64,000 bases of DNA from Rhodobiaceae bacterium (GTDB taxonomy: Bacteria; Pseudomonadota; Alphaproteobacteria; Rhizobiales; Aestuariivirgaceae), in the NCBI GenBank assembly GCA_009885825.1, contig VFJY01000050.1:1-64000 (forward strand), given 5' to 3'. The number at the start of each line of letters is the position of its first letter. Position 1 is the stretch's first letter. The position numbers were made by a program, and so were the translations under genes. Below, piece after piece: positions 7,614 to 24,426 of this stretch. Below the pieces are notes generated by a model, which saw nothing but the letters and a program-made list of their open reading frames with translations, had not been told where the DNA came from and searched no databases.

Positions 7614-9088
7614 TGCAAGCTTTGTCGCGCGCAGCCCTGTCACAATTGCCGCAACACGTGCGAAAACCGGCGCACGACTCATCCCAACTCGAAACAGGCA
7701 TTGTGCATCTGGGTGTCGGCGCGTTTCATCGCGCACACCAAGCGGTGTATACAGACGATGTGATCCAGTCTGGCGATCTGCGCTGGGGTACAGTTGGCGC
7801 AAGTTTGCGCGCAGCCGACACGCGCGATGCATTGAAGCCACAGGACTGGCTCTACATGGTGGCTGAGGCCGACCAAGCGGGGGAGCGCCTGCGCGTTATT
7901 GCTTCGCTGAAAGACGTGCTTGTGGCACCGGAAAGTCCCGAAGCATTGATTGCTGCGATGTGTCAGCCCTCAGTGAAAATCATTTCGATGACAGTGACTG
8001 AAAAAGGTTACTGCCATGATCCGGCGACGGGCGAATTGAACGAAGCCCATCCGGATATTCTTCACGACCTGGCCAATCCCGCTTCACCGCGCTCGGCACC
8101 CGGATTCATTGCCCGTGCAATAGAGCTGCGCCGCAAAAACAATCTCGCACCCTTCACCGTTTTATGTTGCGATAATTTACCTGCCAACGGGCACACGGTT
8201 CACAAAGTTGTCTCACGCTTGGGCGCACTGCAAAGTGCTGATCTTGGTGCTTACATCGGAAACGAGATCGCCTTTCCGTCGACCATGGTTGACCGCATTG
8301 TGCCAACGACAACGGATCAAGATCGGCAAAGAATTGCAGCAACCTTGGGCGTGAAGGACAGTTGGCCTGTGATGACAGAAGCCTTCACGCAATGGGTTGT
8401 TGAAGACCGCTTTCCATCGGGCAGGCCGGAGTGGGCGGCGACATTCGTGTCTGATGTTGGCCCGTTCGAAACCATGAAGCTGCGTTTGCTCAATGGATCG
8501 CATTCCTGCATTGCCTATCTAGGTTATCTTGCGGGTCATGAAACTGTCGCGGCAGCCATGCAGAATGCTGACCTTGCGCGATTTGTCAGACGACTGATGG
8601 ATGAAGAATCTACACCTACTTTGAATGTGCCCAGTGGTACTGATGTTGAGGGATATAAGGCGGCACTGATCAACCGGTTTCAAAATTCGGCGCTTCGCCA
8701 CCGCACCTGGCAGATTGCCATGGATGGTTCGCAAAAGCTGCCGCAACGCTTGCTGGGCACGGCACGCGACAGGTTGAAGTCTGGCGCTTCGATTGATTGC
8801 CTGGCCCTCGGGGTTGCGGCCTGGATGCGATATGCGACGGGCGTGGACGAGAAGGGCCAGCCCATTGATGTGCGCGATCCGTTGCGTGATGAATTGCGCA
8901 GGCGTGCTGATGCGGCGGGACTGGTCGCATCACAACTTGCGCCAGCACTGCTCAGCATCGAAGAGATTTTCGGCAAGGACCTTGCAGAAAGCCAACGCTT
9001 TGTCAGTTCTGTTACATCAGCACTCGACAATCTGATCACGCAAGGGGCCAGCCCCACACTCAAAGCAATGAAGGGGCAAAAGTCGTGA
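7613..9088 (+). CDS. uxuB: Fructuronate reductase / mannitol dehydrogenase family oxidoreductase
   Basis: A 491-residue NAD(P)-dependent long-chain polyol dehydrogenase. The family opening GIVHLGVGAFHRAHQAVYTD forms the nucleotide site. The catalytic pattern Lys-x4-Asn-x2-His is seen as K289, N294 and H297 in MKLRLLNGSHS. UxuB interconverts D-fructuronate and D-mannonate. That function is favoured over mannitol dehydrogenase because the next, overlapping gene encodes mannonate dehydratase. Start and stop overlap both neighbours (TGATG and GTGA). Substrate choice within this family cannot be settled from sequence alone. Confidence 0.82.
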   Translation: MQALSRAALSQLPQHVRKPAHDSSQLETGIVHLGVGAFHRAHQAVYTDDVIQSGDLRWGTVGASLRAADTRDALKPQDWLYMVAEADQAGERLRVIASLKDVLVAPESPEALIAAMCQPSVKIISMTVTEKGYCHDPATGELNEAHPDILHDLANPASPRSAPGFIARAIELRRKNNLAPFTVLCCDNLPANGHTVHKVVSRLGALQSADLGAYIGNEIAFPSTMVDRIVPTTTDQDRQRIAATLGVKDSWPVMTEAFTQWVVEDRFPSGRPEWAATFVSDVGPFETMKLRLLNGSHSCIAYLGYLAGHETVAAAMQNADLARFVRRLMDEESTPTLNVPSGTDVEGYKAALINRFQNSALRHRTWQIAMDGSQKLPQRLLGTARDRLKSGASIDCLALGVAAWMRYATGVDEKGQPIDVRDPLRDELRRRADAAGLVASQLAPALLSIEEIFGKDLAESQRFVSSVTSALDNLITQGASPTLKAMKGQKS

Positions 9089-10278
9089 GACAGACTTGGC
9101 GTTGGTTTGGCCCGGATGATCTTGTGTTGCTGCCACATGTGCGACAGGCGGGTGCGGTTGGTATTGTTTCAGCGCTTCATCACATGAATCGCGGCCAGGC
9201 CTGGACTGATGACGAAGTGCAAAAGCGCAAAGCCCAGATTGACGCCCAGAGCCTGACATGGGATGTGGTTGAAAGCATTGCCGTGCCGGAAAACATCAAG
9301 ACCCGCTCAGGCAATTTCCGGGAATTGATCGACAACTACAAAGCCTCAATTCGCGCTATTGGCCGTGCGGGCATCAAAACCGCCTGCTACAATTTCATGG
9401 CGGTTACAGATTGGACGCGCACGGATCTTTTCTGGCCTTTGCCAAATGGCGGTTCGGCACTGCGTTTCGATATGGTGGATTTTTGCGCCTACGATGTTTT
9501 GATCCTCAAACGGCGCAATGCCGAAGCCGATCATCCAGCGGACAGAATTGCTGAGGCCAAAAAACGGTTGGCAATCTGGCCTGAAAGCAAGATTGCAGAA
9601 CTCGAACGCAACCTGATTGACTGGGTGCCAGCCCGCGAAACCGTTTATGACCGCGTCAGCTTCATAAAGCAGCTTGATGCCTATAAGGACATCAGCCTTG
9701 AAGGCATGCGCCAGAACCTTTTTGAATTTGTAGGAGAGATTGCACCTGTCGCCGAAGAGGCTGGCGTTCAACTCGCCATTCATCCGGATGATCCGCCATT
9801 TCCCCTGTTTGGCTTGCCGCGCGTCAATTCAAAAGCTGACGATACGCACAAGCTCCTCAAGGCGGTCGACATGCGCGCCAATGGTGTCACACTTTGCACG
9901 GGCTCCTATGGTGCCAATCCCAAGAACGATTTGGTCGCCATGGCCAAGGAATTCGCGCCTCGCACTCACTTCGCGCATTTGCGCAACACCACCCATGAGC
10001 TTGATGGCTCATTCTATGAGTCTGAACATCTCGATGGCGATACGGATATGGTGAGTGTGGTTGCGGCATTGCTGAGCGAGGAGGCACGGCGCATGGCTGA
10101 AGGGCGCGTGGACGCAGAGATCCCCATGCGGCCTGATCATGGTCATCTGATTGTCGATGACATTGGCAAGAAAGTGAATCCCGGATACTCTTGCATTGGT
10201 CGCCTCAAGGGTCTGGCGGAACTCCGCGGAGTAATGCGAACCGTTGCCCAATTCCGTGCCGGAAGTGTGAGAGTGTAA
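9085..10278 (+). CDS. uxuA: Mannonate dehydratase
   Basis: UxuA removes water from D-mannonate to give KDG, which KdgK (encoded divergently) phosphorylates. The 397-residue protein begins MRQTWRWFGPDDLV, a hallmark of the family, with the usual SALHHMNRGQAW stretch. A TIM-barrel metal site follows, in IHPDDPP and in a late RPDHGH motif. It uses a GTG start inside the uxuB stop (GTGA overlap). Length is typical. The pairing with UxuB makes the assignment firm. Confidence 0.93.
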   Translation: MRQTWRWFGPDDLVLLPHVRQAGAVGIVSALHHMNRGQAWTDDEVQKRKAQIDAQSLTWDVVESIAVPENIKTRSGNFRELIDNYKASIRAIGRAGIKTACYNFMAVTDWTRTDLFWPLPNGGSALRFDMVDFCAYDVLILKRRNAEADHPADRIAEAKKRLAIWPESKIAELERNLIDWVPARETVYDRVSFIKQLDAYKDISLEGMRQNLFEFVGEIAPVAEEAGVQLAIHPDDPPFPLFGLPRVNSKADDTHKLLKAVDMRANGVTLCTGSYGANPKNDLVAMAKEFAPRTHFAHLRNTTHELDGSFYESEHLDGDTDMVSVVAALLSEEARRMAEGRVDAEIPMRPDHGHLIVDDIGKKVNPGYSCIGRLKGLAELRGVMRTVAQFRAGSVRV

Positions 10279-10282
10279 ACTC

Positions 10283-11392
10283 ATGGCAAAGATCACACGC
10301 ATCGAAGCTTTGATGGTGGACTTGTTGCCGAAGGTGAAGCGCACGGATGCGATTCAGTCTTTCGTCAGCCAGGAAACACCCATCATCCGCATTTACGATG
10401 CCGATGGGGCAATTGGTACCGGTTACACCTACACGATTGGAACTGGTGGTCCGTCCATTATGATGCTGATCAAGCATACACTGGCACCGGCGTTGATCGG
10501 TCGTGAAGCGTCCGAGACTGAAAAGATCTGGCGTGACTTGCTGTTCCTCACCCATGCGACATCGGTGGGCGCCATGACGTCGCTCGCACTCGCCGCCATT
10601 GATACCGCCTTGTGGGATTTGAAATGCCGGAAGGCTGGCCAACCTTTGCACCTGATGGCAGGCGGCGCGCAGTCCCGCATCCCGCTTTACACCACCGAAG
10701 GCGGATGGCTTCACATCGAGACATCAGCCTTGGTGGATGACGCAGTGAAAGCAAAGGAACTGGGTTTCGGCGGTGCCAAGGTAAAAATCGGACGACCGCA
10801 TGTGTCAGAAGATGTGGCCCGTCTCGAAGCCGTGCGCAGGGCGGTTGGTCCGGCATTTGAAATCATGACAGACGCCAATCAGCGCTTCACCGTTGATGAA
10901 GCCATTCGCCGCGCACGCTGCCTGACGCCCATTGATATTGCCTGGCTTGAAGAACCGCTCACTGCCGATGATCTTTCCGGGCATGTTCGATTGTCGCAAA
11001 GTACGACATTGCCGGTCGCTGTTGGTGAAAGCCTCTACAGTCATTTGCATTTCCGCGAGTACTTGCAACAGGGTGCCTGCTCTATCGTTCAAGTTGATGT
11101 GGCGCGGATTGGCGGCATCACGCCTTGGCTGAAGGTGGCGCATCTGGCGGAATGCTTCAACGTTCCCGTTTGCCCTCACTTTCTGATGGAGCTTCATGTT
11201 TCATTGTGTACGTCCGTGCCGAATGCACGTTGGGTTGAATACATCCCTCAACTGGATTCTCTCACAGAAAAACCCATGCGGATTGAAAACGGCCACGCCA
11301 TCCCCTCGGATGACCCAGGCCTGGGTATCGCTTGGGACATCAACGCCGTTAAACGGGCAACCGTCGAAGGCTCGGCTTTCGTCACAGAATGA
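10283..11392 (+). CDS. Enolase-superfamily acid-sugar dehydratase (mandelate racemase subgroup)
   Basis: The 369-residue protein keeps the full mandelate-racemase catalytic set: K166-x-K168 (AKVKIG), metal ligands D197 (TDANQ), E223 (WLEEP) and E249 (VGES), and the Asp272-His299 dyad (VDVARIGG, CPHF). It should therefore abstract a proton next to a carboxylate and dehydrate an aldonate or aldarate. Known relatives act on galactarate, talarate, gluconate or fuconate; which applies here is not visible. Position between uxuA and an idonate-type dehydrogenase suggests a second sugar acid feeding the KDG pool, or an epimerisation step. The stop overlaps the next start. Confidence 0.82.
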   Translation: MAKITRIEALMVDLLPKVKRTDAIQSFVSQETPIIRIYDADGAIGTGYTYTIGTGGPSIMMLIKHTLAPALIGREASETEKIWRDLLFLTHATSVGAMTSLALAAIDTALWDLKCRKAGQPLHLMAGGAQSRIPLYTTEGGWLHIETSALVDDAVKAKELGFGGAKVKIGRPHVSEDVARLEAVRRAVGPAFEIMTDANQRFTVDEAIRRARCLTPIDIAWLEEPLTADDLSGHVRLSQSTTLPVAVGESLYSHLHFREYLQQGACSIVQVDVARIGGITPWLKVAHLAECFNVPVCPHFLMELHVSLCTSVPNARWVEYIPQLDSLTEKPMRIENGHAIPSDDPGLGIAWDINAVKRATVEGSAFVTE

Positions 11393-12459
11393 CAACTATG
11401 CACAAAATGGAATCCAAACCCAAAATGAAAGCATTCTTGCTTTATGGTGCGAAGGACTTGCGGGCTCACGACATGGATTTGCCTGTTGCATCGCCGGGAC
11501 ATATCATGCTCCGCGTGAAGCGCGCCGGAATCTGCGGGTCCGACATGCATTACTATTCCCATGGCAAGATTGGCAGCTTTGTTCCAAAGCGTCCCTTCGT
11601 GCTGGGTCATGAGTTTGCAGGCGAAATTGTCAGTGTTGGCGATGGGGTCAGCCCTTCAATGATCGGGCAACGAGCGACCGTTGATCCATCCATTCCCTGC
11701 GGGAAATGCAAGTTTTGCCGTGGTGGCCGCTATAATCTTTGCCGCGACATGCGATTCTATGGTTCCGCCAGTTGCGACCCTCATATTGACGGTGGTTTTG
11801 CTGAATATACGATTGCGCCCGCCAAGAATTGTTTCGTCATTCCGGATAGCATGGGTTGGGGCGAAGCTGCGATGATTGAACCGCTTTCCGTTGTTGTTCA
11901 TGCAGCGCGTCGCGCAGGTGATATTGCCAGCCGCCGCATACTCGTCACAGGCGGCGGAGCCATCGGCCAACTCATGGCACTGGTGGCCCGAGCCTTTGGC
12001 GCTTCGCAGATTGTGATGAGCGACATTGCCGAATACCCCCGTGAACTGGCTATTAAACTGGGAGCGGACGCCGCTCTCAACGCTTTAGACGTTGATTTCG
12101 AAGCACAAGCCTCGGCCCTGTCGCAAGGTGGTTTCGACTATGTGTTTGAGGCATCAGGCAGTGCGCTAGCTTTGTCACAAGCAATCGCGTCAGCCGAACG
12201 GGGCGCCACTATTGTTCAAGTTGGTACTTTGCCCACACCTGTCACCGCACCGCTCAATTCCATCATGGCCAAAGAGTTGAACTTCATTGGCTCCTTCCGC
12301 TTTGCCAATGTCTTCGCAACCGCACTGGACCTCGCCATTTCCCGGAGGATCAATCTTTCAGCATTGATCAGCGCCGTACTTCCATTGTCTGAGATGCAAA
12401 AAGCCATGGACCTCGCCGTTGGCAAAGACGAGGTGGTAAAGATTCAAATCGAACCCTGA
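11389..12459 (+). CDS. Zinc-dependent dehydrogenase, L-idonate/L-gulonate 5-dehydrogenase type
   Basis: A 356-residue medium-chain dehydrogenase with catalytic zinc residues in AGICGSDMHYY and GHEFAGE, and a structural zinc lobe CGKCKFCRGGRYNLC. The nucleotide-binding site is TGGGAIGQ. It resembles IdnD and RspB. IdnD oxidises L-idonate to 5-ketogluconate. RspB oxidises L-gulonate to D-fructuronate, which UxuB and UxuA could carry on to KDG. The latter fits this operon best, but that is inference. The ATG at 11389 overlaps the upstream stop; a later Met (MKAFLLYG) is an alternative start. It is the last gene of the operon. Confidence 0.8.
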   Translation: MTTMHKMESKPKMKAFLLYGAKDLRAHDMDLPVASPGHIMLRVKRAGICGSDMHYYSHGKIGSFVPKRPFVLGHEFAGEIVSVGDGVSPSMIGQRATVDPSIPCGKCKFCRGGRYNLCRDMRFYGSASCDPHIDGGFAEYTIAPAKNCFVIPDSMGWGEAAMIEPLSVVVHAARRAGDIASRRILVTGGGAIGQLMALVARAFGASQIVMSDIAEYPRELAIKLGADAALNALDVDFEAQASALSQGGFDYVFEASGSALALSQAIASAERGATIVQVGTLPTPVTAPLNSIMAKELNFIGSFRFANVFATALDLAISRRINLSALISAVLPLSEMQKAMDLAVGKDEVVKIQIEP

Positions 12460-12484: not shown

Positions 12485-12826
12485 CTACGGGCTGAAGAAA
12501 ATCCTCTCCATGACAGTCCAGCTCTTGTGGTTCTCGAGCGGCATTTGCGTGGCATCCGTCTGTTTCAGCCAAGCGATGTTTCTTGGTTCTTTGGCAAGCT
12601 TGGCCATGTCGGCTTCGTAGTCATTGCCGTGATATTCATGGTAGGCGAACTCGTAGAACTTCCCGTCTGGCATCTTCTGCAGGAAGATGTTGAAGTTGCG
12701 AATGTTGTAGGACTGCAAGAGATCGCGCACGCCGGGTCCGTCGTGCAATGCGCGATAAGCTTCTATACAGTCTTCCTTGATCCCAATCACCAAACCTATC
12801 CGACGAATGCCAAGGTCATTTTTCAT
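12485..12826 (-). CDS. L-rhamnose/L-fucose mutarotase family protein
   Basis: A 113-residue protein of the RhaM/DUF718 fold, with AYRALHDGPGV carrying the expected histidine, an I-x-NF-x-IFL strand, and a DADMAKLAKEP-like segment (EADMAKLAKEP) before W and TDATQMPL. Such enzymes interconvert alpha and beta anomers of 6-deoxyhexoses. It follows the lactonase gene by five bases on the same strand, so both probably serve L-fucose or a similar sugar. It converges on the dehydrogenase gene with only 25 bases between. Confidence 0.75.
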   Translation of the reverse strand: MKNDLGIRRIGLVIGIKEDCIEAYRALHDGPGVRDLLQSYNIRNFNIFLQKMPDGKFYEFAYHEYHGNDYEADMAKLAKEPRNIAWLKQTDATQMPLENHKSWTVMERIFFSP

Positions 12827-13979: not shown

Positions 13980-15143
13980 TCACAACTCAAGATCGATAGT
14001 CCTCTCTGCTAAGCCGCGAAGCATTTCATCGTCAATTTCGACCCCAAGTCCAGGTGCTTTACTAAGCGTGGCCCGTCCGTTTTGCATTTCGGGTCCGCCA
14101 GTCACCAGCCCATTCGGCATGACTTGGTATTCGCCAGTGTCGACTGGGTATGGGTCATGCAGGGCGGCTGCCAGGTGAAAGAGCGCCGCCGCTCCAATTC
14201 CGGTATATGATGAAATGGCGGGGCTAATCCCGATCGCAGCGGCCTCGCAGATATCGGCAACTCGCATCGCACTGTTCAGGCCTCCAACACGTTCGAGGCT
14301 GAGACCGATACGATCTGCGGCGCCAAGACGTTCGATTTGCATCATGGCCTCGGCTGATACGACAGACTCGGTGAGAACAATGGGCACCGGCAGCTTCTCG
14401 CGCAGGGCGGCATGCCCCAAGAGATCGAATTTGTTGAGGGGTTGTTGGAGGGCAAGGTTTGCGTAGAAGCGTTTTGAGAGGACTTTCTCGAACAATCTAC
14501 TCACCAGAGCTGGATTTCCAAGTGACTGATTTGCGTCAGCGTCAATGGAAATCTCTGCTCCGACGGCTTCCAATGCTCCGAGCAGGCGCTGGCACTTCTC
14601 TTCCAACTGAGCGATGGACGGAGCAGGCGGAAGCACTTCGCTGCCAATCCCAATCTTGAGTCCCCGGTACCCCAGTTCAACTCGCTCGCGAGTGGCGAAA
14701 GCAATCTCTTTCGCCGTCGTGCCAGAAATTTGCGCCACGACCTCCATTTCCGTGCGATAGGCACCACCGAGAATTTCATGGACGGGGCAACCGCGTGCCT
14801 TACCGATGAGATCATGCACCGCCATATCGATGGCAGCCCTTGCCGCCTGACACCCAGGCGGATGCTGACCGTTCGCCCGGTCCATGATCTGATGCAGTGC
14901 ATTGATGTTCAAGGCATCCGCCCCGACGATGGCTGCCTCGTATGCTTTCAACCAGTTGAAGAGACCTGCAAGCGTACGGTTGTCTTGCGCTGGGATGGCC
15001 GCAGCCTCACCGAGGCCTGAGATCCCTGACGCTGTTCGGACGCGGACAATGATCGTCTTTATTGGCAAACCGTTCGCCTTGACGGACCCAGCATCGGCTC
15101 GGGGCAAGGAAATTGGAAAACGTTGGATGTCAACAATCTTCAT
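13980..15143 (-). CDS. Enolase-superfamily protein lacking canonical catalytic residues
   Basis: This 387-residue protein is clearly paralogous to the one at 16447-17661 (shared stretches such as PGCQAARAAIDMAVHDLIGKARGCPVHE in pattern, and late GLGVEID). Aligning the two shows the catalytic set has been lost. The KxK pair is K163-I-G165, the second metal ligand Glu is Q233 (ALQQP instead of IEQP), the third ligand Asp is T258 (TES instead of DES), and the second-side Lys is S282 (LSLERVGG instead of LKPNRVGG). Only the first ligand region DADAN (201-205) remains. The frame is intact and full-length, so it is not a decayed gene. It follows the LacI gene by 15 bases and is likely co-expressed with it. 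It may have other chemistry or a binding or regulatory role. Confidence 0.8.
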   Translation of the reverse strand: MKIVDIQRFPISLPRADAGSVKANGLPIKTIIVRVRTASGISGLGEAAAIPAQDNRTLAGLFNWLKAYEAAIVGADALNINALHQIMDRANGQHPPGCQAARAAIDMAVHDLIGKARGCPVHEILGGAYRTEMEVVAQISGTTAKEIAFATRERVELGYRGLKIGIGSEVLPPAPSIAQLEEKCQRLLGALEAVGAEISIDADANQSLGNPALVSRLFEKVLSKRFYANLALQQPLNKFDLLGHAALREKLPVPIVLTESVVSAEAMMQIERLGAADRIGLSLERVGGLNSAMRVADICEAAAIGISPAISSYTGIGAAALFHLAAALHDPYPVDTGEYQVMPNGLVTGGPEMQNGRATLSKAPGLGVEIDDEMLRGLAERTIDLEL

Positions 15144-15158
15144 GGTGATGATTGCCCC

Positions 15159-16253
15159 CTACCCTTCTGCGAATTGCTTGCGGTTTGTGACCGCATGCTT
15201 TCCGGACAGAGTGATCGCGACGCTTCGGCGTGGCTGCGCGCAGGATTCACGAACGATCAGCTCGGTGCGCAGTAGAATTTCAGGAAATTGGCGCAATGCC
15301 GCTAGCGGGCCATCGATGGCTGCAATTAGAGTGTCACTGGCCAGTCGACCCATGTAGAAGCGTTGCTCGCGGAGCGTTGTAACTGCGGGCGAAAAAAAAC
15401 TTGCCCAAGCTGGATCGTCAAAGCCAACGACACTCAGTTCCTCCGGAATGCTGACGCCATAGTCCTTGAGGCAACGCAATGCAGCGCCGGTCATCATTTC
15501 GCTGCTAACAAGAATGGCAGTCGGCGGCTTCGGCATCGTAATCAGCCGCTCAGTTGCCTCGTAGGCCAGTGCTGGAGCGTAGTTTCCATAGGCCACTAGA
15601 TCTTCATGGAAAGGCAACCCAACTTGTGCCAGGCCTGCTTTGTATCCGTTAAGCCGACTGCTCCCGGTCTCCAGTTCTTGCAGACCAGCAACGATGCCAA
15701 TGCGTTTATGGCCAAGGGACCCGAGATAGACCACAGCATCCAACGCAGCTTGTTGATCATCCGATCGGATGTTCGTGATGTCTGCATCGTCAATTCTGCA
15801 ATTGACGAGAACCATCGGAAAACCAGATTGTGCAACCTTGGCAATGACCGGAAAGTTTTCGGCGAGCGGCGATACGATAATGCCGTCAACACCACGCTCA
15901 CGCAGATCCTTCAAATACTCCCTTTCAAGCTGCGCATCATCAGCGGTGTTGCAGAGAATAACATGGTAGCCAGCTTGGCGCGCGGCTTCTTCCACGCCTT
16001 GCACAAAAACAGTCCAGTGGTAGCTGGCAATTTCGTTGATCATCACTCCAATCGCGCGAGTCCGCCTGAGCCGCAAGGAGCGAGCCACTCCATTGACGCG
16101 ATAATCGAGCGCCTTAGCAGCTTTCATAACTGACTTGCTCGTGTTCTCACTGTATGAGCCATAGCCCCCGAGCACACGGCTGGCCATTCCGACCGACACA
16201 TTGGCGGCTGCCGCGACATCCTTGAGCGTAATTGATTTCTTGTGCTTTGCCAT
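15159..16253 (-). CDS. LacI family transcriptional regulator
   Basis: The 364-residue protein has the LacI helix-turn-helix at residues 8-30 (TLKDVAAAANVSVGMASRVL) and a hinge with SLRLRRTRAIGVM. A periplasmic-binding-protein-like sensor domain follows, with SVVGFDDPAWASFFSPAVTTLR near residue 290. It is transcribed with the downstream enolase-like gene and is divergent from the enolase-importer operon, with a CG-centred palindrome in the gap. It is therefore the probable repressor of this second sugar-acid island, released by a substrate or intermediate that cannot be named from sequence. Confidence 0.9.
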   Translation of the reverse strand: MAKHKKSITLKDVAAAANVSVGMASRVLGGYGSYSENTSKSVMKAAKALDYRVNGVARSLRLRRTRAIGVMINEIASYHWTVFVQGVEEAARQAGYHVILCNTADDAQLEREYLKDLRERGVDGIIVSPLAENFPVIAKVAQSGFPMVLVNCRIDDADITNIRSDDQQAALDAVVYLGSLGHKRIGIVAGLQELETGSSRLNGYKAGLAQVGLPFHEDLVAYGNYAPALAYEATERLITMPKPPTAILVSSEMMTGAALRCLKDYGVSIPEELSVVGFDDPAWASFFSPAVTTLREQRFYMGRLASDTLIAAIDGPLAALRQFPEILLRTELIVRESCAQPRRSVAITLSGKHAVTNRKQFAEG

Positions 16254-16358
16254 TCGTGGCCAATCGGCTGGATTGATAGGATGCCCAGATTCTTCGGTTG
16301 GAAATAGGGCGCGTATTTGGGCCTGAAGACTTAATGTTTGAAATCAACGACGTCAACG

Positions 16359-16370
16359 TATATCGATATA
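16359..16370. promoter_or_regulatory. Candidate LacI-type operator
   Basis: TATATCGATATA is a perfect 12-base palindrome with the central CG typical of LacI-family operators. It lies in the 193-base gap between the divergent LacI gene and enolase operon, 76 bases upstream of the enolase start. Its half-site resembles the palindrome at 17765-17778, which supports one regulator for both. Confidence 0.6.
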
Positions 16371-16446: not shown

Positions 16447-17661
16447 ATGAAGATCACGGCTATCGAGTTTCTCCCTTTGCGGCTGACAATTGACCTGCCC
16501 AGCTCGCCTCTGGGAACTGACTCTTCAACCAGGGAGCAGAAGGATGCGACCGCCGAAGTCCTCGCGGCGCAACGATATGCTCCGCCTGAAACAGTGTTCG
16601 TCCGGATCAAAACCGACGCCGGTATTGAAGGTCTTGGTGACGGCGCCACCCTTCCTCACTACTTTGGCCACGGCATCGGGAGCATGCTAGATTGGCTCTC
16701 GCGGTTCCGCATGGTCTTGATCGGCTGCAATCCACTCAACATAGCAGGCATCCATCGCGAGATGGAAGCGGTGGCCAGCATTGGCGTTCCGGGTTGTCGA
16801 CCCGCCCAGGCGGCAATCGACATGGCCATTTACGATCTCGTCGGCAAAGTCCACGGGTGCCCGGTTTACGAGCTGCTCGGCGGCGCAATGCGAACTGAAC
16901 TCGAGTTGCAGACTCAGATGCATGGACACTCGGTCGAACAGCTTTTAGGTGTTTGCGAGCACTACATTGCCAAAGGCTTCACCGGTTTGAAACTGAAAAT
17001 TGGCGGAAAGATCCGGCGGGAAGGTTTTTCAAAAGCCGCAGTCGATGAGGAAACCGATAAAATCGTTGGTGTTGCTGGCCGTTTGCCAGGCACAATCCAG
17101 GTCGATGTCGACGCCAATCAGGCGCTCGGCAACCCCAAGATTGCTATTGGTATGTTTGAACGTGTTCTTCGCGAGGCGTTTCATCCTAACCTGTCAATTG
17201 AACAGCCGTTGCACCACCTTGATCTTGTCGGTCATGCGCTCATCCGCAAGATGCTGCCCTTCCCCATGATCCTCGACGAGTCTGTGACATCTCCAGTCGC
17301 GATGATGCAAATTGTCCGCATGAATGCTGCAGACCGGATTGTGCTCAAGCCAAACCGCGTTGGCGGGCTTTGGCCGGCGCGGAAGATCATCAGCATCTGC
17401 GAAGCCAATGGCATCGGCATCAGCCTGGACACCATGCCTTTCACGCTTCTGGGCGACACCATGCTCTGCCATCTCGGTGCAACCATCAAGACGCACTACC
17501 CGCTCGATGGTGAAGGCCACACGTTCTTTTCCAAGACGCCCTTTGTCGGCGGCATCAAGCTCCACCACGGCCGTGCCCAGCTTCCAAATGGACCCGGCTT
17601 TGCAGTCGAGGTGGATGAAGACCAGCTCTCAAAGATGATTGCGAGCAGCGAAGCTGCCTGA
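16447..17661 (+). CDS. Enolase-superfamily dehydratase/cycloisomerase (muconate lactonizing subgroup)
   Basis: A 404-residue protein with an intact muconate-lactonizing-type active site: K182-x-K184 (GLKLKIGG), metal ligands D222 (VDVDAN), E252 (IEQP) and D277 (LDES), and the opposite-face base K301 (LKPNRVGG). This should catalyse a proton-abstraction reaction on a carboxylate substrate, such as dehydration, cycloisomerisation or epimerisation of a sugar acid. It leads the operon that continues with an oligopeptide-type importer and a DapA-family enzyme, so it probably acts on the imported compound or a product. An insertion near residues 20-40 makes it longer than most relatives. The substrate is unknown. 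Confidence 0.83.
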   Translation: MKITAIEFLPLRLTIDLPSSPLGTDSSTREQKDATAEVLAAQRYAPPETVFVRIKTDAGIEGLGDGATLPHYFGHGIGSMLDWLSRFRMVLIGCNPLNIAGIHREMEAVASIGVPGCRPAQAAIDMAIYDLVGKVHGCPVYELLGGAMRTELELQTQMHGHSVEQLLGVCEHYIAKGFTGLKLKIGGKIRREGFSKAAVDEETDKIVGVAGRLPGTIQVDVDANQALGNPKIAIGMFERVLREAFHPNLSIEQPLHHLDLVGHALIRKMLPFPMILDESVTSPVAMMQIVRMNAADRIVLKPNRVGGLWPARKIISICEANGIGISLDTMPFTLLGDTMLCHLGATIKTHYPLDGEGHTFFSKTPFVGGIKLHHGRAQLPNGPGFAVEVDEDQLSKMIASSEAA

Positions 17662-17764: not shown

Positions 17765-17778
17765 GTATAACGTTACAC
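17765..17778. promoter_or_regulatory. Second candidate LacI-type operator
   Basis: GTATAACGTTACAC is a CG-centred palindrome with one mismatched pair (half-sites GTATAAC and GTTACAC), 18 bases upstream of the binding-protein start. It shares the GTATA half-site edge with the palindrome at 16359. It suggests that the importer genes have their own promoter under the same LacI regulator, or an internal control point. Confidence 0.55.
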
Positions 17779-17796: not shown

Positions 17797-19395
17797 ATGA
17801 TCAGGCGTCGAACATTTCTGAGTAGCCTTCTGGGAAGCGCTGCGGCCTTGAGTATGCCCCCTATGCTGGGCGGCCTCACCCAAAACGCCTATGGCGCGAC
17901 CGAACCCGTCAAAGGCGGCACGTTGAATGTTGGCTTGCATATTCCGCTACCCACCCTCGACTGGCAGTCGACCGTGGGCCATCCCCTGCCGCATGTCATG
18001 GGGCATGTTTTCGAAGGCCTCACGGGGCAAGTTAAAGACCTAAATGTTGAACCTGAGCTGGCCGAAACCATAGAGGCTGCTGCCGATGGAAAGACCTGGA
18101 CCTTCAAACTGAGGTCCGGCGTCAAGTTCCACAATGGAAAGACGCTGGAAGCAGCTGACGTCAAGGCTTCGCTGGAACGGTGGCGCAAGGTTGGGCCAAA
18201 AGGTTCAGGGCTTGAAACCCTTTCAGCCATCGAAGTACCGTCCGCCGACACTGTAGTGATGAAATTCAACTCGGCAATGGGACGCTATCTCCTGCTGCTC
18301 CTGGGTTCGGATGAAAACAAAGCCGTCATCATGCCTCAGGAGATTGCCGATGCATCGACAACCCCGGGCAAGCTGACCGAGGTTGTAGGCACAGGTCCCT
18401 ATCGTTTTGTTGAGTACAAGGAAGATCAGTACGCCAAGCTGCAGCGCTTCGAGGAATACGTAGCGCGATCCGATGCGCCAAACTATCAGACAGGCAAGAA
18501 ACTGGCCCACCTCGACGAAATCATTTTCTGGATTGTACCGGAATCTTCGACCCGGATCGCCGGACTTGAAAGCGGTGAGTATGACGTCATTACAGAGGTC
18601 CCTGATTCCGAGGCGGCTCGGTTGGCTGGAAATGCAGAACTTGACGCCATCAAGAACGGCCCTGGCGTCTTGAACTACATGATGTTCAATCACAAGAAAG
18701 GCCCAACCAGCGATCTCAACATTCGCAAGGCCATCCAATCGATGATTGATCCGAAGGAGATCTCGTCAGTGGTGGTATCAGACCCGAGCTTTGCCTTGAC
18801 CAACCCGAGCATCTATGCGCCGGAAAGCGCCTACAATACCGATGCAGGTTCCGATCTCTACAAGCCGGGCGACGTTGCGAAGGCCAAAGAATATCTTGCG
18901 GCAGCTGGTTACAAGGGAGAGCCCATCTCAATCCAGGTGATCTCCACAAGCGACACACAAAAGCGCGTCGCAGTGGCACTGGTTGAGCAGGCAAAGCGCG
19001 CCGGACTCAATCTCGTCATCAACAGTTACGATCTCAACACGTGGGTTGCCAAGCGGCGAGATCCGAACGCCCTCAACATCTATACCTCAAGCGGCTACTG
19101 GGTCGATCCATCGCTGTGGAATGGGGAATTCAATGGCACATTCCCATCGCCTGAAGTGGGCTTCATCAGCCCCGAAACCCAAGAGATATTTGCCAAACTC
19201 GCTGCGGAAACTGAGTTTGCAAAACGCAAGGCGCTGGGTGAAGATCTGCAACGCTCGTTCTATCAGCAAGTTGCAATGGCAAATCTCGGCTACATTTATC
19301 GGCTTGTCGCCAAGCGCAAGAAGGTCATGGATCCAGATGGCAATCTGGCGCTCGGAAATCTCACGCTGCACGGCGTGTGGATCGAGAAGTCATAA
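17797..19395 (+). CDS. Oligopeptide-type ABC transporter binding protein, Tat-exported
   Basis: A 532-residue family-5 extracellular solute-binding protein (DppA/OppA-like). It begins with a twin-arginine signal (RRRTFLSSL at residues 3-11) and a hydrophobic stretch ending near ANAYGA-like QNAYGA, so it is probably folded before export. Family features include WTFKLRSGVKFHNG and GTGPYRF. Despite the name, family-5 receptors also bind nickel, opines, glycosides and sugar derivatives. Context with an enolase-type enzyme and a DapA-type enzyme suggests a sugar-acid or oligosaccharide ligand. It has a strong GGGAGG ribosome site. Confidence 0.88.
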   Translation: MIRRRTFLSSLLGSAAALSMPPMLGGLTQNAYGATEPVKGGTLNVGLHIPLPTLDWQSTVGHPLPHVMGHVFEGLTGQVKDLNVEPELAETIEAAADGKTWTFKLRSGVKFHNGKTLEAADVKASLERWRKVGPKGSGLETLSAIEVPSADTVVMKFNSAMGRYLLLLLGSDENKAVIMPQEIADASTTPGKLTEVVGTGPYRFVEYKEDQYAKLQRFEEYVARSDAPNYQTGKKLAHLDEIIFWIVPESSTRIAGLESGEYDVITEVPDSEAARLAGNAELDAIKNGPGVLNYMMFNHKKGPTSDLNIRKAIQSMIDPKEISSVVVSDPSFALTNPSIYAPESAYNTDAGSDLYKPGDVAKAKEYLAAAGYKGEPISIQVISTSDTQKRVAVALVEQAKRAGLNLVINSYDLNTWVAKRRDPNALNIYTSSGYWVDPSLWNGEFNGTFPSPEVGFISPETQEIFAKLAAETEFAKRKALGEDLQRSFYQQVAMANLGYIYRLVAKRKKVMDPDGNLALGNLTLHGVWIEKS

Positions 19396-19502: not shown

Positions 19503-20453
19503 ATGTTGACCTACGCCATACGTCGCGTTTTGGCGTTTGTGCCGACCATCTTCATTACTCTCACGCTCATTTTCGTTGTGACCAGACTAGTGCCCGGCAG
19601 TCCGGTCTGGGCGTTGATTGGCAACCAGTCAGTCGACGCTGCCAGGATGGAAGAGATAACGCGGCAGCTCGGCCTCGACCGGCCGATCTTGGAACAGTAT
19701 CTTGAATGGCTTCCCCGCGTTGTGACAGGCGATTTTGGTCAATCTATTTTTTTTGGCCGGCCGGTGGCTGAAATCATTCTGGAACGAATGCCAATTACAT
19801 TCGCACTAACCCTACTTGCAATGATCGTTACCATAGCGGTAGGGATACCGCTTGGCATTCTGGCGGCCATCCGGCGGGGTGGATTTCTGGATTACATCGG
19901 CAATATTTTCTCCAGCCTCGGCATGGCGCTGCCATCATTCTGGTTGGGCTTCATGCTAATCCTCATCTTCGCAGTGGAACTGCAATGGCTCCCCGCTTCA
20001 GGCTATCGTCCCCTTGAATTTGGCTTCTGGCCTTGGCTCAGTCGAATGATATTGCCGGTTATCGCACTGAGTCTCGCTCAAATCGGCCTGATTGCACGCA
20101 TGACCCGTTCCACCATGATCGAAGTCTTGGGAATGGACTACGTAACGATGGCCCGCGCAAAGGGCCTGCGCGAGCACGTCGTCATTCTCAAGCATGCACT
20201 CAAGAACGCCATGATCCAGATCATCACGGTCATTGGATTGACGTTCGCTCTCGGTCTCGGTGGATCAGTCATCATCGAAAACGTCTTCGCCCTCCCGGGC
20301 CTCGGGCAATTGATCACCACCGCCGCAATCCGCCGTGACTATCCAACGCTTGAGGGCGGCATCTTTTACCTGACACTGGTTGCACTGGTCACAAATTTGA
20401 TCGTCGATCTCGCCTACGCCTATTTCAATCCCCGCGTCAGGTACGGCAAATGA
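19503..20453 (+). CDS. ABC transporter permease (DppB type)
   Basis: A 316-residue inner-membrane protein with six predicted segments, starting MLTYAIRRVLAFVPTIFITLTL as DppB-type permeases do. It carries the ATPase-contact loop DYVTMARAKGLREHVVILKHALKNA and a GGSVIIENVFALPGLG stretch near the end. The stop overlaps the next permease start (ATGA). It forms the heterodimeric channel with that gene product. Confidence 0.92.
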   Translation: MLTYAIRRVLAFVPTIFITLTLIFVVTRLVPGSPVWALIGNQSVDAARMEEITRQLGLDRPILEQYLEWLPRVVTGDFGQSIFFGRPVAEIILERMPITFALTLLAMIVTIAVGIPLGILAAIRRGGFLDYIGNIFSSLGMALPSFWLGFMLILIFAVELQWLPASGYRPLEFGFWPWLSRMILPVIALSLAQIGLIARMTRSTMIEVLGMDYVTMARAKGLREHVVILKHALKNAMIQIITVIGLTFALGLGGSVIIENVFALPGLGQLITTAAIRRDYPTLEGGIFYLTLVALVTNLIVDLAYAYFNPRVRYGK

Positions 20454-21304
20454 TCATTTCCATGCCATTCCTCTCGATATGGTTCAGAAGAACCAATGCC
20501 ATGCTGATCACCGGCTCTTTCATGTTGTTGCTGCTGCTTGCCGGATCCATCATTGCACCATTGCTCTTCGCGCTTGATCCCTTGGCAATCGATGCAACGC
20601 GAAAGCTTGAAGCACCGAGCGCGACCTATCTCCTTGGCACGGATGAGTTTGGCCGCGATACATTTGCCCGGATTGTCTACGGAGCACACGTGTCGTTGCG
20701 CGTTGCATTTGCCGCCACGGCGCTGACGGCGGTGGTCGGGATTATCCTCGGCACTGTCTCCGGCCAGTCCCGATTGGCAGACGCGATCATCGGCCGGATT
20801 TCGGACAGCTTGCTCGTCTTTCCTGGCTTCGTGCTTGCGATCATGATTCTTGCAGCCATCGGTCCGGCAGAGATCAATGTCGTCCTCGCGGTATTTCTTC
20901 TCTACGTGCCACGGGTCATCCGCACTGTTCGTGCCTCAGTCATCGAGTTCATCACAGCCGACTTCGTGCAGGCTGCCCGCTCGGTTGGCATCGGTAACTT
21001 CAGGCTCTTGGCCGTCCACGTCTTGCCCAATGCAACCGGCCCCGTCATGGTTCAGCTTTCTTTCGGCTTCGCATGGGCGATACTTGTCGAGGCAGGATTG
21101 AGTTTTCTTGGCCTCGGTCTACCACCTCCCAGCCCCAGCTGGGGAAACATGATCAGTGATGCACGCGAATTCATACGCACGGCGCCATGGCTGATGTTCG
21201 CTCCAGGCGCCATGATCTCATTGGCGGTTCTCAGCCTGAACTTGATTGGCGACGGACTTCGCGACATGCTTGACCCGCGACTTCAGAACAAGATCAACCT
21301 GTGA
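20450..21304 (+). CDS. ABC transporter permease (DppC type)
   Basis: A 284-residue inner-membrane protein with the DppC signature LGTDEFGRDTFARIVYGAHVSL near the N-terminus. The coupling loop FVQAARSVGIGNFRLLAVHVLPNA is present, as is GLSFLGLGLPPPSPSWGNMI later. It overlaps genes on both sides (ATGA and GTGA). The translation may begin at the first ATG or at the internal MPF five codons later. Confidence 0.92.
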   Translation: MIISMPFLSIWFRRTNAMLITGSFMLLLLLAGSIIAPLLFALDPLAIDATRKLEAPSATYLLGTDEFGRDTFARIVYGAHVSLRVAFAATALTAVVGIILGTVSGQSRLADAIIGRISDSLLVFPGFVLAIMILAAIGPAEINVVLAVFLLYVPRVIRTVRASVIEFITADFVQAARSVGIGNFRLLAVHVLPNATGPVMVQLSFGFAWAILVEAGLSFLGLGLPPPSPSWGNMISDAREFIRTAPWLMFAPGAMISLAVLSLNLIGDGLRDMLDPRLQNKINL

Positions 21305-22395
21305 AACACGTTGCGCCCATACCCGCAGAATCTCAGACTGGTACGTCTGGAAGCGGCACCACGGCCTTCCACGGAGCGGCAGAACCCGCTCTCGAAATAC
21401 GCGGCCTCCAGGTGCGCTTTCCGAGCGATCAAGGGCCGGTCTCCGTAATTGACGGTATTGACCTCTCGATCGCCAAGGGCGAGATTCTGGGGCTAGTCGG
21501 AGAATCCGGTTGCGGCAAGACAATGCTCGCGCGGTCAATTCTGCGCCTCATTCCGCCACCAGGCCGAGTCACCGGCGGGAAGATCATGTTTGATGGTGTG
21601 GATCTGCTTGGACTGAATCATGAGAGAATGCGGCCGATACGCGGAGACAAGATCGCAATTGTTCTGCAGGAGCCGATGACGAGCCTTAACCCGGCTCTGA
21701 GAATCGGGGATCAAATCACTGAAGTCTTGAAGGCCCATCGGCCACTTCTTAGCCAGGCGGAACGCAATGCACTTGCGTCGGATCTGCTGGAACAGGTTGG
21801 CATTCAAATGGCCTCTCAGAGGCTCACTCAATACCCCCATGAACTCTCGGGCGGCATTCGCCAACGAGTTGTGATTGCGATGGCGTTGGTATGCGGCGAC
21901 GTCCGGCTGCTCATTGCCGATGAGCCCACGACCGCCTTGGACGTTACCATTCAGGCACAGATACTGGAGCTGTTTACTCGTCTTCAGGCCGAGCGGCGCA
22001 TGGCAGTCCTCTTGATTACCCACGACTTGGGCGTCATCGCCCAAACGGCCCATCGGGTGGCTGTCATGTATGCTGGCCGTATCGTTGAGATTGCCGAAGT
22101 CAATCAGCTCTTTGATAGTCCAAGGCACCCATACACGCGTGGCCTGCTCCTGTCGCTTCCCAGAAGAGGTGTAGGCTTGCCAAAGTCGCAACTCCCCGCA
22201 ATCGCCGGCAGCGTTCCCAAGCTCTCTAATTTGCCAAGTGGCTGCAGTTTTTATGACCGATGCCCGCACCACTTGGAAGACCGATGCCAGGTGTCGGTTC
22301 CTGCGCTTGAGGAAACACGCCCTGGCAGTTGGGTAAGGTGCCATCGCTGGCGCGAATTGCCCGCATTTGAGTTGCCTGCGGACGTCAAGCCATGA
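21301..22395 (+). CDS. ABC transporter ATPase (DppD type)
   Basis: A 364-residue ATPase with Walker A GESGCGKT, signature LSGGIRQRV and Walker B LLIADEPTTALD. The C-terminal oligopeptide-transport extension is present, with the cysteine-rich CSFYDRCPHHLEDRC pattern that in homologues binds an iron-sulfur cluster. It has a GTG start within the upstream stop. The first ~30 residues are a low-complexity lead not usual in the family, so a later start cannot be ruled out. Confidence 0.9.
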   Translation: MKHVAPIPAESQTGTSGSGTTAFHGAAEPALEIRGLQVRFPSDQGPVSVIDGIDLSIAKGEILGLVGESGCGKTMLARSILRLIPPPGRVTGGKIMFDGVDLLGLNHERMRPIRGDKIAIVLQEPMTSLNPALRIGDQITEVLKAHRPLLSQAERNALASDLLEQVGIQMASQRLTQYPHELSGGIRQRVVIAMALVCGDVRLLIADEPTTALDVTIQAQILELFTRLQAERRMAVLLITHDLGVIAQTAHRVAVMYAGRIVEIAEVNQLFDSPRHPYTRGLLLSLPRRGVGLPKSQLPAIAGSVPKLSNLPSGCSFYDRCPHHLEDRCQVSVPALEETRPGSWVRCHRWRELPAFELPADVKP

Positions 22396-23429
22396 ACAGT
22401 TTCGCTACCGCAGATCCCGAACCAATTCTCGAGGTCAAGGACCTCGTCAAGCATTTTGCCAGCAGTGGGAGCTGGTCTTGGCAACAGCGTCGGAAAACTC
22501 GAGCGGTCGACGGAATCTCTTTCAAACTTCTACCAGGTTCGACCCTCGCGCTGGTTGGGGAGTCGGGCTGTGGAAAGTCGACGACAGCAAAACTCATCTT
22601 GCAACTTCTCGAACCAGACAGTGGAGACATCAGGCTCTGTGGTGAGTCTGTCACCAAGCCCAAAAAGAACGCTCTCAGGCGTCTCCGGCGGAATGTGCAA
22701 ATGGTGTTTCAGGACCCATACGCATCCCTGACGCCGCATCTGAAGATCGGCGCAATCTTACGCGAGCCGTTCCTGGTCAAGGGCGTTCGCCCGCGCTACG
22801 AGATAAACGAGCGTGTCAGGTTCGTGCTAACGGCTGTGGGGCTCGATCCCAATATCGCACAGCGCTTTCCGCACGAATTGTCCGGCGGACAGCGCCAACG
22901 CGTGGGGATCGCAAGAGCCATTGCAGGCGAGCCACGGCTCATTGTATGCGACGAGCCCGTCTCCGCTCTCGACGTCTCGATCCGTTCGCAGATAATCAAT
23001 CTTCTTCTGGACCTTCAGAAGTCCTGCGGCCTCTCATTCCTTTTCATTTCACATGACCTTGACCTTGTTGCACATGTCAGTGACGTCGTCGCCGTTATGT
23101 ATCTTGGCAAGATTGTTGAGCAAGCTCCTGCCGCCACTTTCTTCGCACAACCAAGACACCCTTATTCTCAAGCGCTTTTGGCATCTTCACCAATTCCAGA
23201 TCCAAGACGACGGACAAAACCCGCCATCAGGGGCGAAATCATGGCAGGAACCGAACTTGGCGCAGGTTGCCGTTTCAGAAATCGTTGCCCTTTGGCTGTC
23301 AGCCTCTGCGCTGCGGCTGAACCTGAACTGCAAACAATCACCGAGAGCCACGAAGTAGCCTGTCACCGAGCCGATGAAACGGCATACACGCATGAGGCTT
23401 CGCAATTCCAAACTCACGCCAACAAATGA
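22392..23429 (+). CDS. ABC transporter ATPase (DppF type)
   Basis: A 345-residue ATPase paired with the preceding one. It has Walker A GESGCGKS, signature LSGGQRQRVGIARA and Walker B LIVCDEPVSALD, plus a C-terminal cysteine pattern CRFRNRCPLAVSLC. It starts in the stop of the upstream gene (ATGA). The two ATPases energise the importer formed by the genes at 17797-21304. Confidence 0.92.
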   Translation: MNSFATADPEPILEVKDLVKHFASSGSWSWQQRRKTRAVDGISFKLLPGSTLALVGESGCGKSTTAKLILQLLEPDSGDIRLCGESVTKPKKNALRRLRRNVQMVFQDPYASLTPHLKIGAILREPFLVKGVRPRYEINERVRFVLTAVGLDPNIAQRFPHELSGGQRQRVGIARAIAGEPRLIVCDEPVSALDVSIRSQIINLLLDLQKSCGLSFLFISHDLDLVAHVSDVVAVMYLGKIVEQAPAATFFAQPRHPYSQALLASSPIPDPRRRTKPAIRGEIMAGTELGAGCRFRNRCPLAVSLCAAAEPELQTITESHEVACHRADETAYTHEASQFQTHANK

Positions 23430-23484
23430 GTACTGGACCGAGTTACAGAAAAACGTTCATGCACCAGCACGAGGAGACATCATC

Positions 23485-24426
23485 ATGGTATCAGATATCT
23501 TTCGGGGCTGCATTCCCGCGCTGATGACGCCATGCACGTCCGAGCGCTTGCCAGATTTCGATGCGCTGGTTCGCAAGGGCAAGGAATTAACTATGGCCGG
23601 CATGACGGCTGTCGTCTACTGCGGGTCCATGGGCGACTGGCCGCTTCTAACTGATGAACAACGTCAGGAAGGTGTCGAACAACTAGTAAATGCGGGAATT
23701 CCTGTGATTGTTGGCACAGGAGCACAGAATTCAGCGCGCGCCGCAATACTTGCAGCTCACGCCAAGAAGGCAGGGGCTAAAGGCCTCATGATCATTCCAA
23801 GAGTGCTGTCACGGGGCAGTTCTGCAGCTGCCCAGTCCGCCCATTTCTCGCACGTTCTGGAGGCAGCAGTGGACTTGCCGTCCGTCATCTACAATAGTCC
23901 TTACTATGGATATGAAACAAAGGCAGATCTGTTCTTTGAACTCAAGCGCCAGTATCCACACCTCGTCGGCTTCAAGGAATTTGGAGGGGCTGTAGCTCTG
24001 CGTTATGCGGCCGAGCATATAACTGGGCGCGATCTGTCGCTCGCGCTGGTTGTTGGCGTCGACACTCAAGTTTTCCATGGCTATGTCAATTGTGGCGCAG
24101 TCGGCACAATCACTGGCATAGGCAATGTGCTGCCCAAAGAGGTGCTTCATCTTGTGGCGTTGTGTGAACGCGCTGCAACCGGTGACCACAAGGCACGCCA
24201 GCAAGCACTTGAACTCGAAAAGGCGCTTTGGGTGTTATCGACCTTCGATGAAGGACCGGATCTCGTTCTCTACTACAAGCGGCTCATGGTGCTCGAAGGC
24301 AATCCTGAGTACGAAATTCATTTCAACCCTGCTGACGAGTTGAGTGCTAGCCAAAAGCACTACGCTGAAACTCAACTCGGGCTCTTCCGAAAATGGTATC
24401 GCGAGTGGTCATCTGCGCAATGCTGA
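23485..24426 (+). CDS. Dihydrodipicolinate synthase / N-acetylneuraminate lyase family protein
   Basis: The 313-residue TIM-barrel enzyme has the Schiff-base lysine K164 in GFKEFGG and the family tyrosine Y136 in IYNSPYYG. The usual GTTGE phosphate/carboxylate motif is changed to GSMGD (residues 47-51), so true DapA activity in lysine synthesis is unlikely. It is more likely a 2-keto-3-deoxy-acid aldolase, dehydratase or deaminase working on the product of the enolase-type enzyme in the same operon. I chose the ATG at 23485 because a GAGGAG site lies just upstream; the open frame begins 111 bases earlier inside the ATPase gene. Confidence 0.85.
   Translation: MVSDIFRGCIPALMTPCTSERLPDFDALVRKGKELTMAGMTAVVYCGSMGDWPLLTDEQRQEGVEQLVNAGIPVIVGTGAQNSARAAILAAHAKKAGAKGLMIIPRVLSRGSSAAAQSAHFSHVLEAAVDLPSVIYNSPYYGYETKADLFFELKRQYPHLVGFKEFGGAVALRYAAEHITGRDLSLALVVGVDTQVFHGYVNCGAVGTITGIGNVLPKEVLHLVALCERAATGDHKARQQALELEKALWVLSTFDEGPDLVLYYKRLMVLEGNPEYEIHFNPADELSASQKHYAETQLGLFRKWYREWSSAQC

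Follow-up and report, generated by a model that had tools for sequence, protein, structure and literature searches.

The gene at positions 13,980–15,143 (minus strand) of the window, the whole 64,000-nucleotide stretch of DNA analyzed here, encodes a 387-aa, MLE-like protein (P) that is, judged from its sequence, an old, selected and presumably inactive pseudoenzyme of the enolase superfamily, apparently within the regulon of a LacI-family repressor. The pseudoenzyme reading, already put forward in the original prediction from the letters of the window alone, is supported by the sequence, by purifying selection, by synteny in eight of eight loci and by the predicted fold. We put at about even the prospect that P is an old functional pseudoenzyme acting, most likely, as a non-catalytic partner of its intact enolase-superfamily twin (I; 16,447–17,661, plus strand, 404 aa) under a shared repressor.

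Active-site residues of P

P and I share 39% identity, aligned over the length of P. In a joint alignment of eight P, eight I and six other homologues (numbered here by the residues of P, with codons checked), P has K163, G165, D203, Q233, T258 and S282 where I has the complete set K, K, D, E, D and K. G165 (codon 14,649–14,651, minus strand, as are the following) stands in place of the second Lys of the KxK motif, Q233 (14,445–14,447) in place of the second metal ligand Glu, T258 (14,370–14,372) in place of the third metal ligand Asp and S282 (14,298–14,300) in place of the sixth-strand Lys; the first metal ligand, D203 (14,535–14,537), is retained. The losses named in the original prediction (G165, Q233, T258 and S282) are therefore correct residue by residue, and its description of a full-length protein with a clean frame agrees with the 387 aa, the alignment with I along the whole length and the open reading frame found here. 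Alignments to PDB sequences (2p88, 3jva and 1muc) agree with the joint alignment on the catalytic columns; in muconate lactonizing enzyme, dipeptide epimerase and the 2p88 racemase, these columns fall on residues whose individual catalytic roles are well established for the enolase superfamily.

Both Pfam domains of the family, representing the capping domain and the barrel, are found in P above their cut-offs, MR_MLE_N (PF02746) at 62.2 bits (cut-off 22) and MR_MLE_C (PF13378) at 124 bits (cut-off 29.4), and by fold and descent P is a member of the enolase superfamily of the MR/MLE type. In active members the metal is bound by three acidic residues located at barrel-strand ends, of which P keeps only D203, and active MLE-type members carry KxK and a sixth-strand Lys, where P has K163-x-G165 and S282. 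Compared with the branch of muconate lactonizing enzyme and N-succinyl-Arg/Lys racemase (1muc, 2p88), P thus has the same fold over almost its full length but is without the second Lys of KxK, the Glu and Asp ligands and the sixth-strand Lys. The combination by which a pseudoenzyme is recognized, namely homology to an enzyme, absence of the catalytic motif and maintenance of the gene, is found in six of the eight P orthologues. Neither twin scores as a muconate cycloisomerase (TIGR02534; 109.5 bits for P and 122 for I, at least 334.95 being needed), and cis-3-hydroxy-L-proline dehydratase (NF043002), the second-best NCBIfam match of both, is placed out of reach by scores of 105.1 (P) and 102.5 (I) bits against a cut-off of 500.

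The frequency of such substitutions was gauged in 53 different enolase-superfamily proteins (loci L001–L049, with L050 and L051 outside the set), limited to proteins with E ≤ 1e-15 against the profile of the set. Glu occupies the 233 column in 52 of the 53, the sole exception being window P, so that loss of the Glu ligand is an exceptional mark. Since different residues serve in other subgroups, the remaining columns are more variable: 40 of the 53 have Lys at 165, 34 have Asp at 258 and 26 have Lys at 282, window P being among the 27 that lack this last Lys. Loss of K282 by itself would not indicate inactivity. Another enolase homologue of the window genome (L002; G000:C73:28814-29491) has Gly at the first metal-ligand column, which may be a misalignment. 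In the base-rate and column-conservation counts, the L056_P row of the alignment begins 7 residues late, and the G146_P row includes 33 residues upstream of the likely ATG.

The trio of genes and its putative operators

A gene for a LacI-family regulator (15,159–16,253, minus strand) lies 15 bp upstream of P on the same strand, and I is divergent from it. This trio, comprising an intact enolase I, a divergent lacI and P behind lacI, occurs in the window and in seven further genomes, and P stands beside lacI and I for eight of the eight I orthologues found, which is the arrangement that the original prediction proposed to look for among orthologues. A scan of the same order identified two adjacent close relatives in genome G146 as the I and P orthologues, flanking a lacI; a search of genome contigs with the I pair yielded five more I orthologues, all in metagenome-assembled genomes (titled Beijerinckiaceae, Rhizobiales, Devosia, Rhodospirillales and Hyphomicrobiales), and a family scan added genome G489. 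The sample is thus eight loci only, at least five of them from metagenome assemblies by title. The trio was counted in 1 of 69 genomes of the window's own family and 2 of 397 of its order, in 1 of 5 in the family of G146, 3 of 136 in that of G446, 1 of 48 in that of G448, 1 of 28 in that of G450 and 1 of 298 in that of G447, and in 1 of 317 in the order of G448 and 1 of 385 in the class. These counts span several sampled groups, include genomes already known to hold the trio, and are lower bounds, since scoring was in many cases restricted to a handful of top candidates per genome (four in the order scan). A single-query search of genome contigs with P alone found no relative. An assembly artefact is unlikely because the trio recurs on the single 5.3 Mb contig of G146 and on the 3.47 Mb contig of G489. 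Plasmid carriage was also set aside: among 72,556 plasmid records, query P0002 had no match at 1e-60, and query P0001 had two distant matches, neither of them with a trio around it. On pSymA of Sinorhizobium meliloti (L062, 6,001–6,871), a two-piece enolase-like match that is not part of a trio lies beside a proline racemase family gene.

The coding regions of P and lacI overlap in three of the eight loci (4 bp in L056 and G146, and 1 or 4 bp in G489 depending on the start codon), and elsewhere they are separated by 4 bp (L054), 13 bp (L053), 15 bp (window), 59 or 74 bp (L055, again depending on the start codon) and 214 bp (L052). An importer with a family-5 binding protein follows P in five of the eight loci (L053, L054, L055, G146 and G489), a sulfatase gene (L074, 10,688–12,148) intervening in G489. 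The window has its importer behind I instead, on the plus strand: a solute-binding protein of family 5 (SBP_bac_5; 17,797–19,395), two permeases (BPD_transp_1; 19,503–20,453 and 20,450–21,304) and an ATPase (ABC_tran, oligo_HPY; 21,301–22,395). L052 has a family-3 importer behind I on the opposite strand, and the L056 contig ends just past P. The binding protein was assigned to family 5 by Pfam in the window, L054, L055, G146 and G489, and by BLAST to the window protein in L053; unlike the other loci, the L052 importer near the second operator-like site (9,312–12,297) carries SBP_bac_3.

Operator-like sites are found at two places in the window, one between lacI and I (GTATATCGATATA, 16,358–16,370), with a counterpart in all eight trio loci, and one upstream of the importer (GTATAACGTTACA, 17,765–17,777). 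The site pattern, GTATAWCGWTRYA, was derived from the lacI–I intergenic stretches of the eight loci, so its presence there is partly by construction; in shuffled stretches it was met in 0.03 of 8 on average (single-base shuffles). It has a central CG, like LacI-family operators. The recurrence of a second copy with at most one mismatch in eight of eight loci is an independent result, one base of the pattern having been loosened after the second copy of the window was seen. This second site precedes the likely start of the binding-protein gene in seven loci, so that an importer lies behind it; in L053 and L054 it falls within the longest ORF, ahead of a later ATG, and in L056 it is behind P at the contig end. 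The paired sites are located at 7,921 and 12,388 in L052, 3,434 and 1,088 in L053, 7,957 and 5,619 in L054, 7,914 and 5,460 in L055, 2,619 and 157 in L056, 9,113 and 6,768 in L075 (G146) and 8,430 and 12,222 in L074 (G489). The window alone gives four matches at up to two mismatches (two places, both strands), a number reached or exceeded in 8 of 100 shuffles; weak in the window, the pattern draws its strength from turning up again in the other loci. Across the whole window genome there are three exact matches, namely the two trio sites and one on contig C194, and at one mismatch there are 10, against 17 for a reversed control. A scan for promoter and terminator consensus sequences gave about the same result as shuffled sequence.

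The regulon is taken as I, lacI–P and the importer, with the sites as putative operators. The original prediction had placed P in the operon of the LacI regulator and not with the enzymes. The first half agrees with the lacI gene 15 bp upstream on the same strand; the second half is misleading, as P appears to lie in the regulon of the intact enzyme and in five genomes directly precedes importer genes.

Descent, selection and predicted fold

A maximum-likelihood tree of 21 proteins groups the eight P in one clade (support 96/94) and the eight I in another (100/100). Within the P clade, six sequences (window, L052, G489, G146, L053 and L054) form an inner group with support of 99/99; G489_P and L052_P have long end branches, which leaves their exact places unsure. 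The two outer sequences are largely intact: L056_P (209–1,405 in L056) keeps all six catalytic residues, and in L055_P (5,534–6,703 in L055) only the sixth-strand Lys among the six is changed (to Arg), together with N205 to Cys, T310 to Gly and D335 to Asn in the residue naming of the intact protein. Both may still be enzymes. Loss of E233 and K282 is common to the six inner P, while the exact set of substitutions in window P is private to it. In the order window, L052, G489, G146, L053 and L054, the residues are Q, Q, V, V, L and I at 233, S, S, D, N, N and S at 282, and T, S, E, D, D and D at 258, with Asp kept at this last column in three of the six; D203 is kept in four. Alignment of the KxK columns is difficult in G146 and G489, and the aligned G146, L053 and L054 sequences show an eroded N terminus and eroded first barrel strands.

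The pattern is most simply read as Glu and Lys having been lost once, in the common ancestor of the six lineages, with separate erosion afterwards. Because the tree places the shared loss before the split of the six lineages, the loss is old and not a recent decay. Retention of the residues by orthologues had been named in advance as a sign of recent decay; they are retained fully in L056 and nearly so in L055, yet the loss in the six lineages predates their split. Recent decay of a local duplicate was rejected both by the tree and by an AU test in which window P and window I were forced together (p-AU 8.6e-60). A displaced metal ligand at E259 was considered as well, and since residue 259 differs among the inner P (Glu in the window and G489; T, A, R and G in the other four), it offers no common rescue. 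The P and I trees have four of five splits in common and the lacI and I trees five of five, with 28 of 20,000 random trees sharing at least four splits with I; the three genes have therefore travelled together. In the tree, the P clade has as its closest relatives intact homologues from two trio genomes, G450 (L076, 4,458–5,636) and G448 (L077, 8,047–9,204); the stretches read around these homologues gave no lacI or P match. Seven I and five other enzymes (L056_I, cut by the contig end at 270 codons, was left out) have 75 invariant columns in common. All six inner P preserve 25 of these, with none of the six catalytic columns among them; at p = 0.079 it is not clear that the catalytic columns have been hit harder than other invariant columns, and no special loss at these sites is claimed.

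P is constrained, though less so than I. One-ratio codon models gave omega values of 0.079–0.094 for the six inner P and 0.021–0.028 for the matching six I, and for G146, L053 and L054 alone 0.099–0.110 (P) versus 0.022–0.024 (I); each range is two values printed by the program, and with most pairs close to or at synonymous saturation (dS), the values are rough. The log-likelihood for the six P is −6484.2 with omega free versus −6764.6 with omega fixed at 1 and kappa at 2, a cost of 280 log units (140 for the three), and the comparison is close to fair since the fitted kappa for P is 1.7–1.8. For the pair L053/L054, dS is 1.71 (P) versus 1.72 (I) and dN 0.294 (P) versus 0.059 (I). The P frame is open in eight of eight orthologues; stop codons account for about 2.9% of single changes, and by a rough estimate an unselected frame would stay open over the tree with a probability of ~10^-35.

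An AlphaFold2 model of window P, built with 10 relatives, has a pLDDT of 86.7 and a pTM of 0.88, and its closest solved structure is 2p88 (Z 45.0, rmsd 2.2 over 360 residues, 28% identity), with 1muc at Z 44.7. The model of the much diverged L054_P (pLDDT 80.2, pTM 0.84) has a poor stretch at 129–137, where the counterpart of the 144–156 helix of P is absent, and still matches 1bkh and 1muc with Z 35.4 and rmsd 2.8 over 338–339 residues. The fold is thus predicted to be kept in P, even in L054_P. The fold core that the original prediction described as kept is borne out by the predicted structure, and dN/dS, which it named as a refuting sign if near one, is well below one (omega about 0.08–0.09).

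Conservation among the six inner P is highest in blocks 106–120 and 241–255 (mean pairwise identity 0.64 each) and 316–330 (0.62), and is poor at residues 1–30, 46–60 and 136–180 (0.04 to 0.18). N81, R117 and H122 are among the residues that all six P share and that I lacks; R117 is present in the outer P too, and R117 and H122 occur in some outgroup rows. By the secondary structure of the model, these three residues would sit in helices preceding the barrel, a placement that might suit an interface. One reading is that constraint may have shifted in P from the barrel mouth to surfaces.

Possible roles and substrate

A plausible course of events begins with an enolase-superfamily enzyme encoded behind lacI, which would have lost its Glu ligand and sixth-strand Lys in the ancestor of the six lineages. 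Further active-site residues would then have been lost separately, with the fold and the place beside lacI and I kept, and P would now act as a non-catalytic subunit or allosteric partner of I. The imported substrate could induce the importer, enzyme I and partner P together by way of one repressor. That P is such a subunit or partner, in a hetero-oligomer with I, we rate at slightly under an even chance, on the analogy with two known systems, the AdoMet decarboxylase prozyme and HisZ. Counted against our preferred explanation are the two P with all or nearly all of the catalytic residues, the p value of 0.079 and the small number of loci. Further points on that side are the 27 of 53 superfamily proteins without Lys at 282, the saturated dS, the eroded N termini of G146, L053 and L054, and the overlap of P with lacI in three of eight loci, which would also fit a role with LacI.

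The fold of AdoMet decarboxylase is unrelated to that of enolase; HisZ is an inactive relative of tRNA synthetase, and HisZ and its partner derive from different enzyme families. In trypanosomes, according to excerpts of PMC5201418, the AdoMet decarboxylase prozyme is a dead paralogue that activates the active one by forming a heterodimer. It resembles P in being a dead paralogue kept beside an active paralogue, and differs in belonging to another enzyme family and in that its complex is proven, whereas that of P and I is a proposal. HisZ, as portrayed in the excerpted text of PMC9734150 and PMC10795190, acts in bacteria as a regulatory protein, activating the short-form HisG that is its catalytic partner; unlike that pair, P and I are paralogues. 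The pseudoenzyme review PMC10211241 treats several pseudoenzyme–enzyme pairs, and its main text does not mention enolase; excerpts of PMC10415035 deal with the enolase superfamily and with pseudoenzymes and give no pseudoenzyme within that superfamily. Among the matches listed from the open-licence literature no described enolase-superfamily pseudoenzyme was found; pseudoenzyme–enzyme pairs are already known, and an example from this superfamily is, within those matches, apparently new. The enolase superfamily is a textbook family for enzyme evolution. Here one syntenic place holds a graded series, from the intact L056_P through the nearly intact L055_P to the heavily eroded L054_P, with an intact twin as a control in every trio genome, so that the step from enzyme to non-enzyme is directly testable.

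The main rival to a partner of I is a ligand-binding sensor working with LacI or the importer, in which the old pocket would bind an inducer or product and tune repression or uptake. We consider it unlikely on balance, as the gene order that speaks for it (P behind lacI in all eight loci, coding overlap in the three loci L056, G146 and G489, P between lacI and importer genes in five, and paired operator-like sites) is set against pocket residues that vary among the six P and the 214 bp gap of L052. LacI proteins also carry a sensor domain of their own, which Pfam finds in the window LacI. Somewhat less probable still is that P, once an enolase, now serves specifically as a co-sensor in the LacI circuit, made from the lacI transcript; P would then bind the compound on which I acts, or I itself, and pass the signal to the repressor or importer. 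If so, an enzyme, its dead twin, a repressor and a transporter would form a single regulatory unit.

The two remaining explanations both appear improbable. A gene decaying slowly since an ancient second enzyme step was lost, and kept by linkage to lacI only, would account for a dN of P five times that of I at equal dS (L053/L054), for the two P that retain catalytic residues and for the p value of 0.079 for special loss at catalytic sites; it is hard to reconcile with a frame open in eight of eight loci, omega below 0.1 for the six and a predicted fold kept even in L054_P, and we rate it quite unlikely. Least probable of all, and in our view very unlikely, is that P is catalytically active through a new mechanism, one that is metal-poor or metal-independent. 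The predicted fold, purifying selection, D203 in four and the 258 Asp in three of the six inner P would be in keeping with it, but such an enzyme should retain its own new catalytic residues, and the six have no common set of replacements at the 233, 258 and 282 columns; the metal-independent mechanism raised in the original prediction is therefore unsupported. The preferred reading thus remains that of an old functional pseudoenzyme, probably partnering I.

Two kinds of hints bear on the substrate of I. The neighboring genes are of a sugar-acid type (rhaM, a lactonase, UxuA and fructuronate-reductase-like genes), and a small rhaM-type mutarotase gene is located near three of the eight trios (window 12,485–12,826; L052 5,040–5,375; L075 831–1,244, in G146), which points to sugars. 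Amino-acid-like hints are provided by SBP_bac_5, by SBP_bac_3 in L052 and by the racemases and epimerases among the nearest solved structures; the swap of binding-protein family hints at a small, perhaps amino-acid-like or conjugated substrate. Right behind the importer genes of the window is a gene for a DHDPS-family lyase (23,374–24,426), a possible next step of the pathway.
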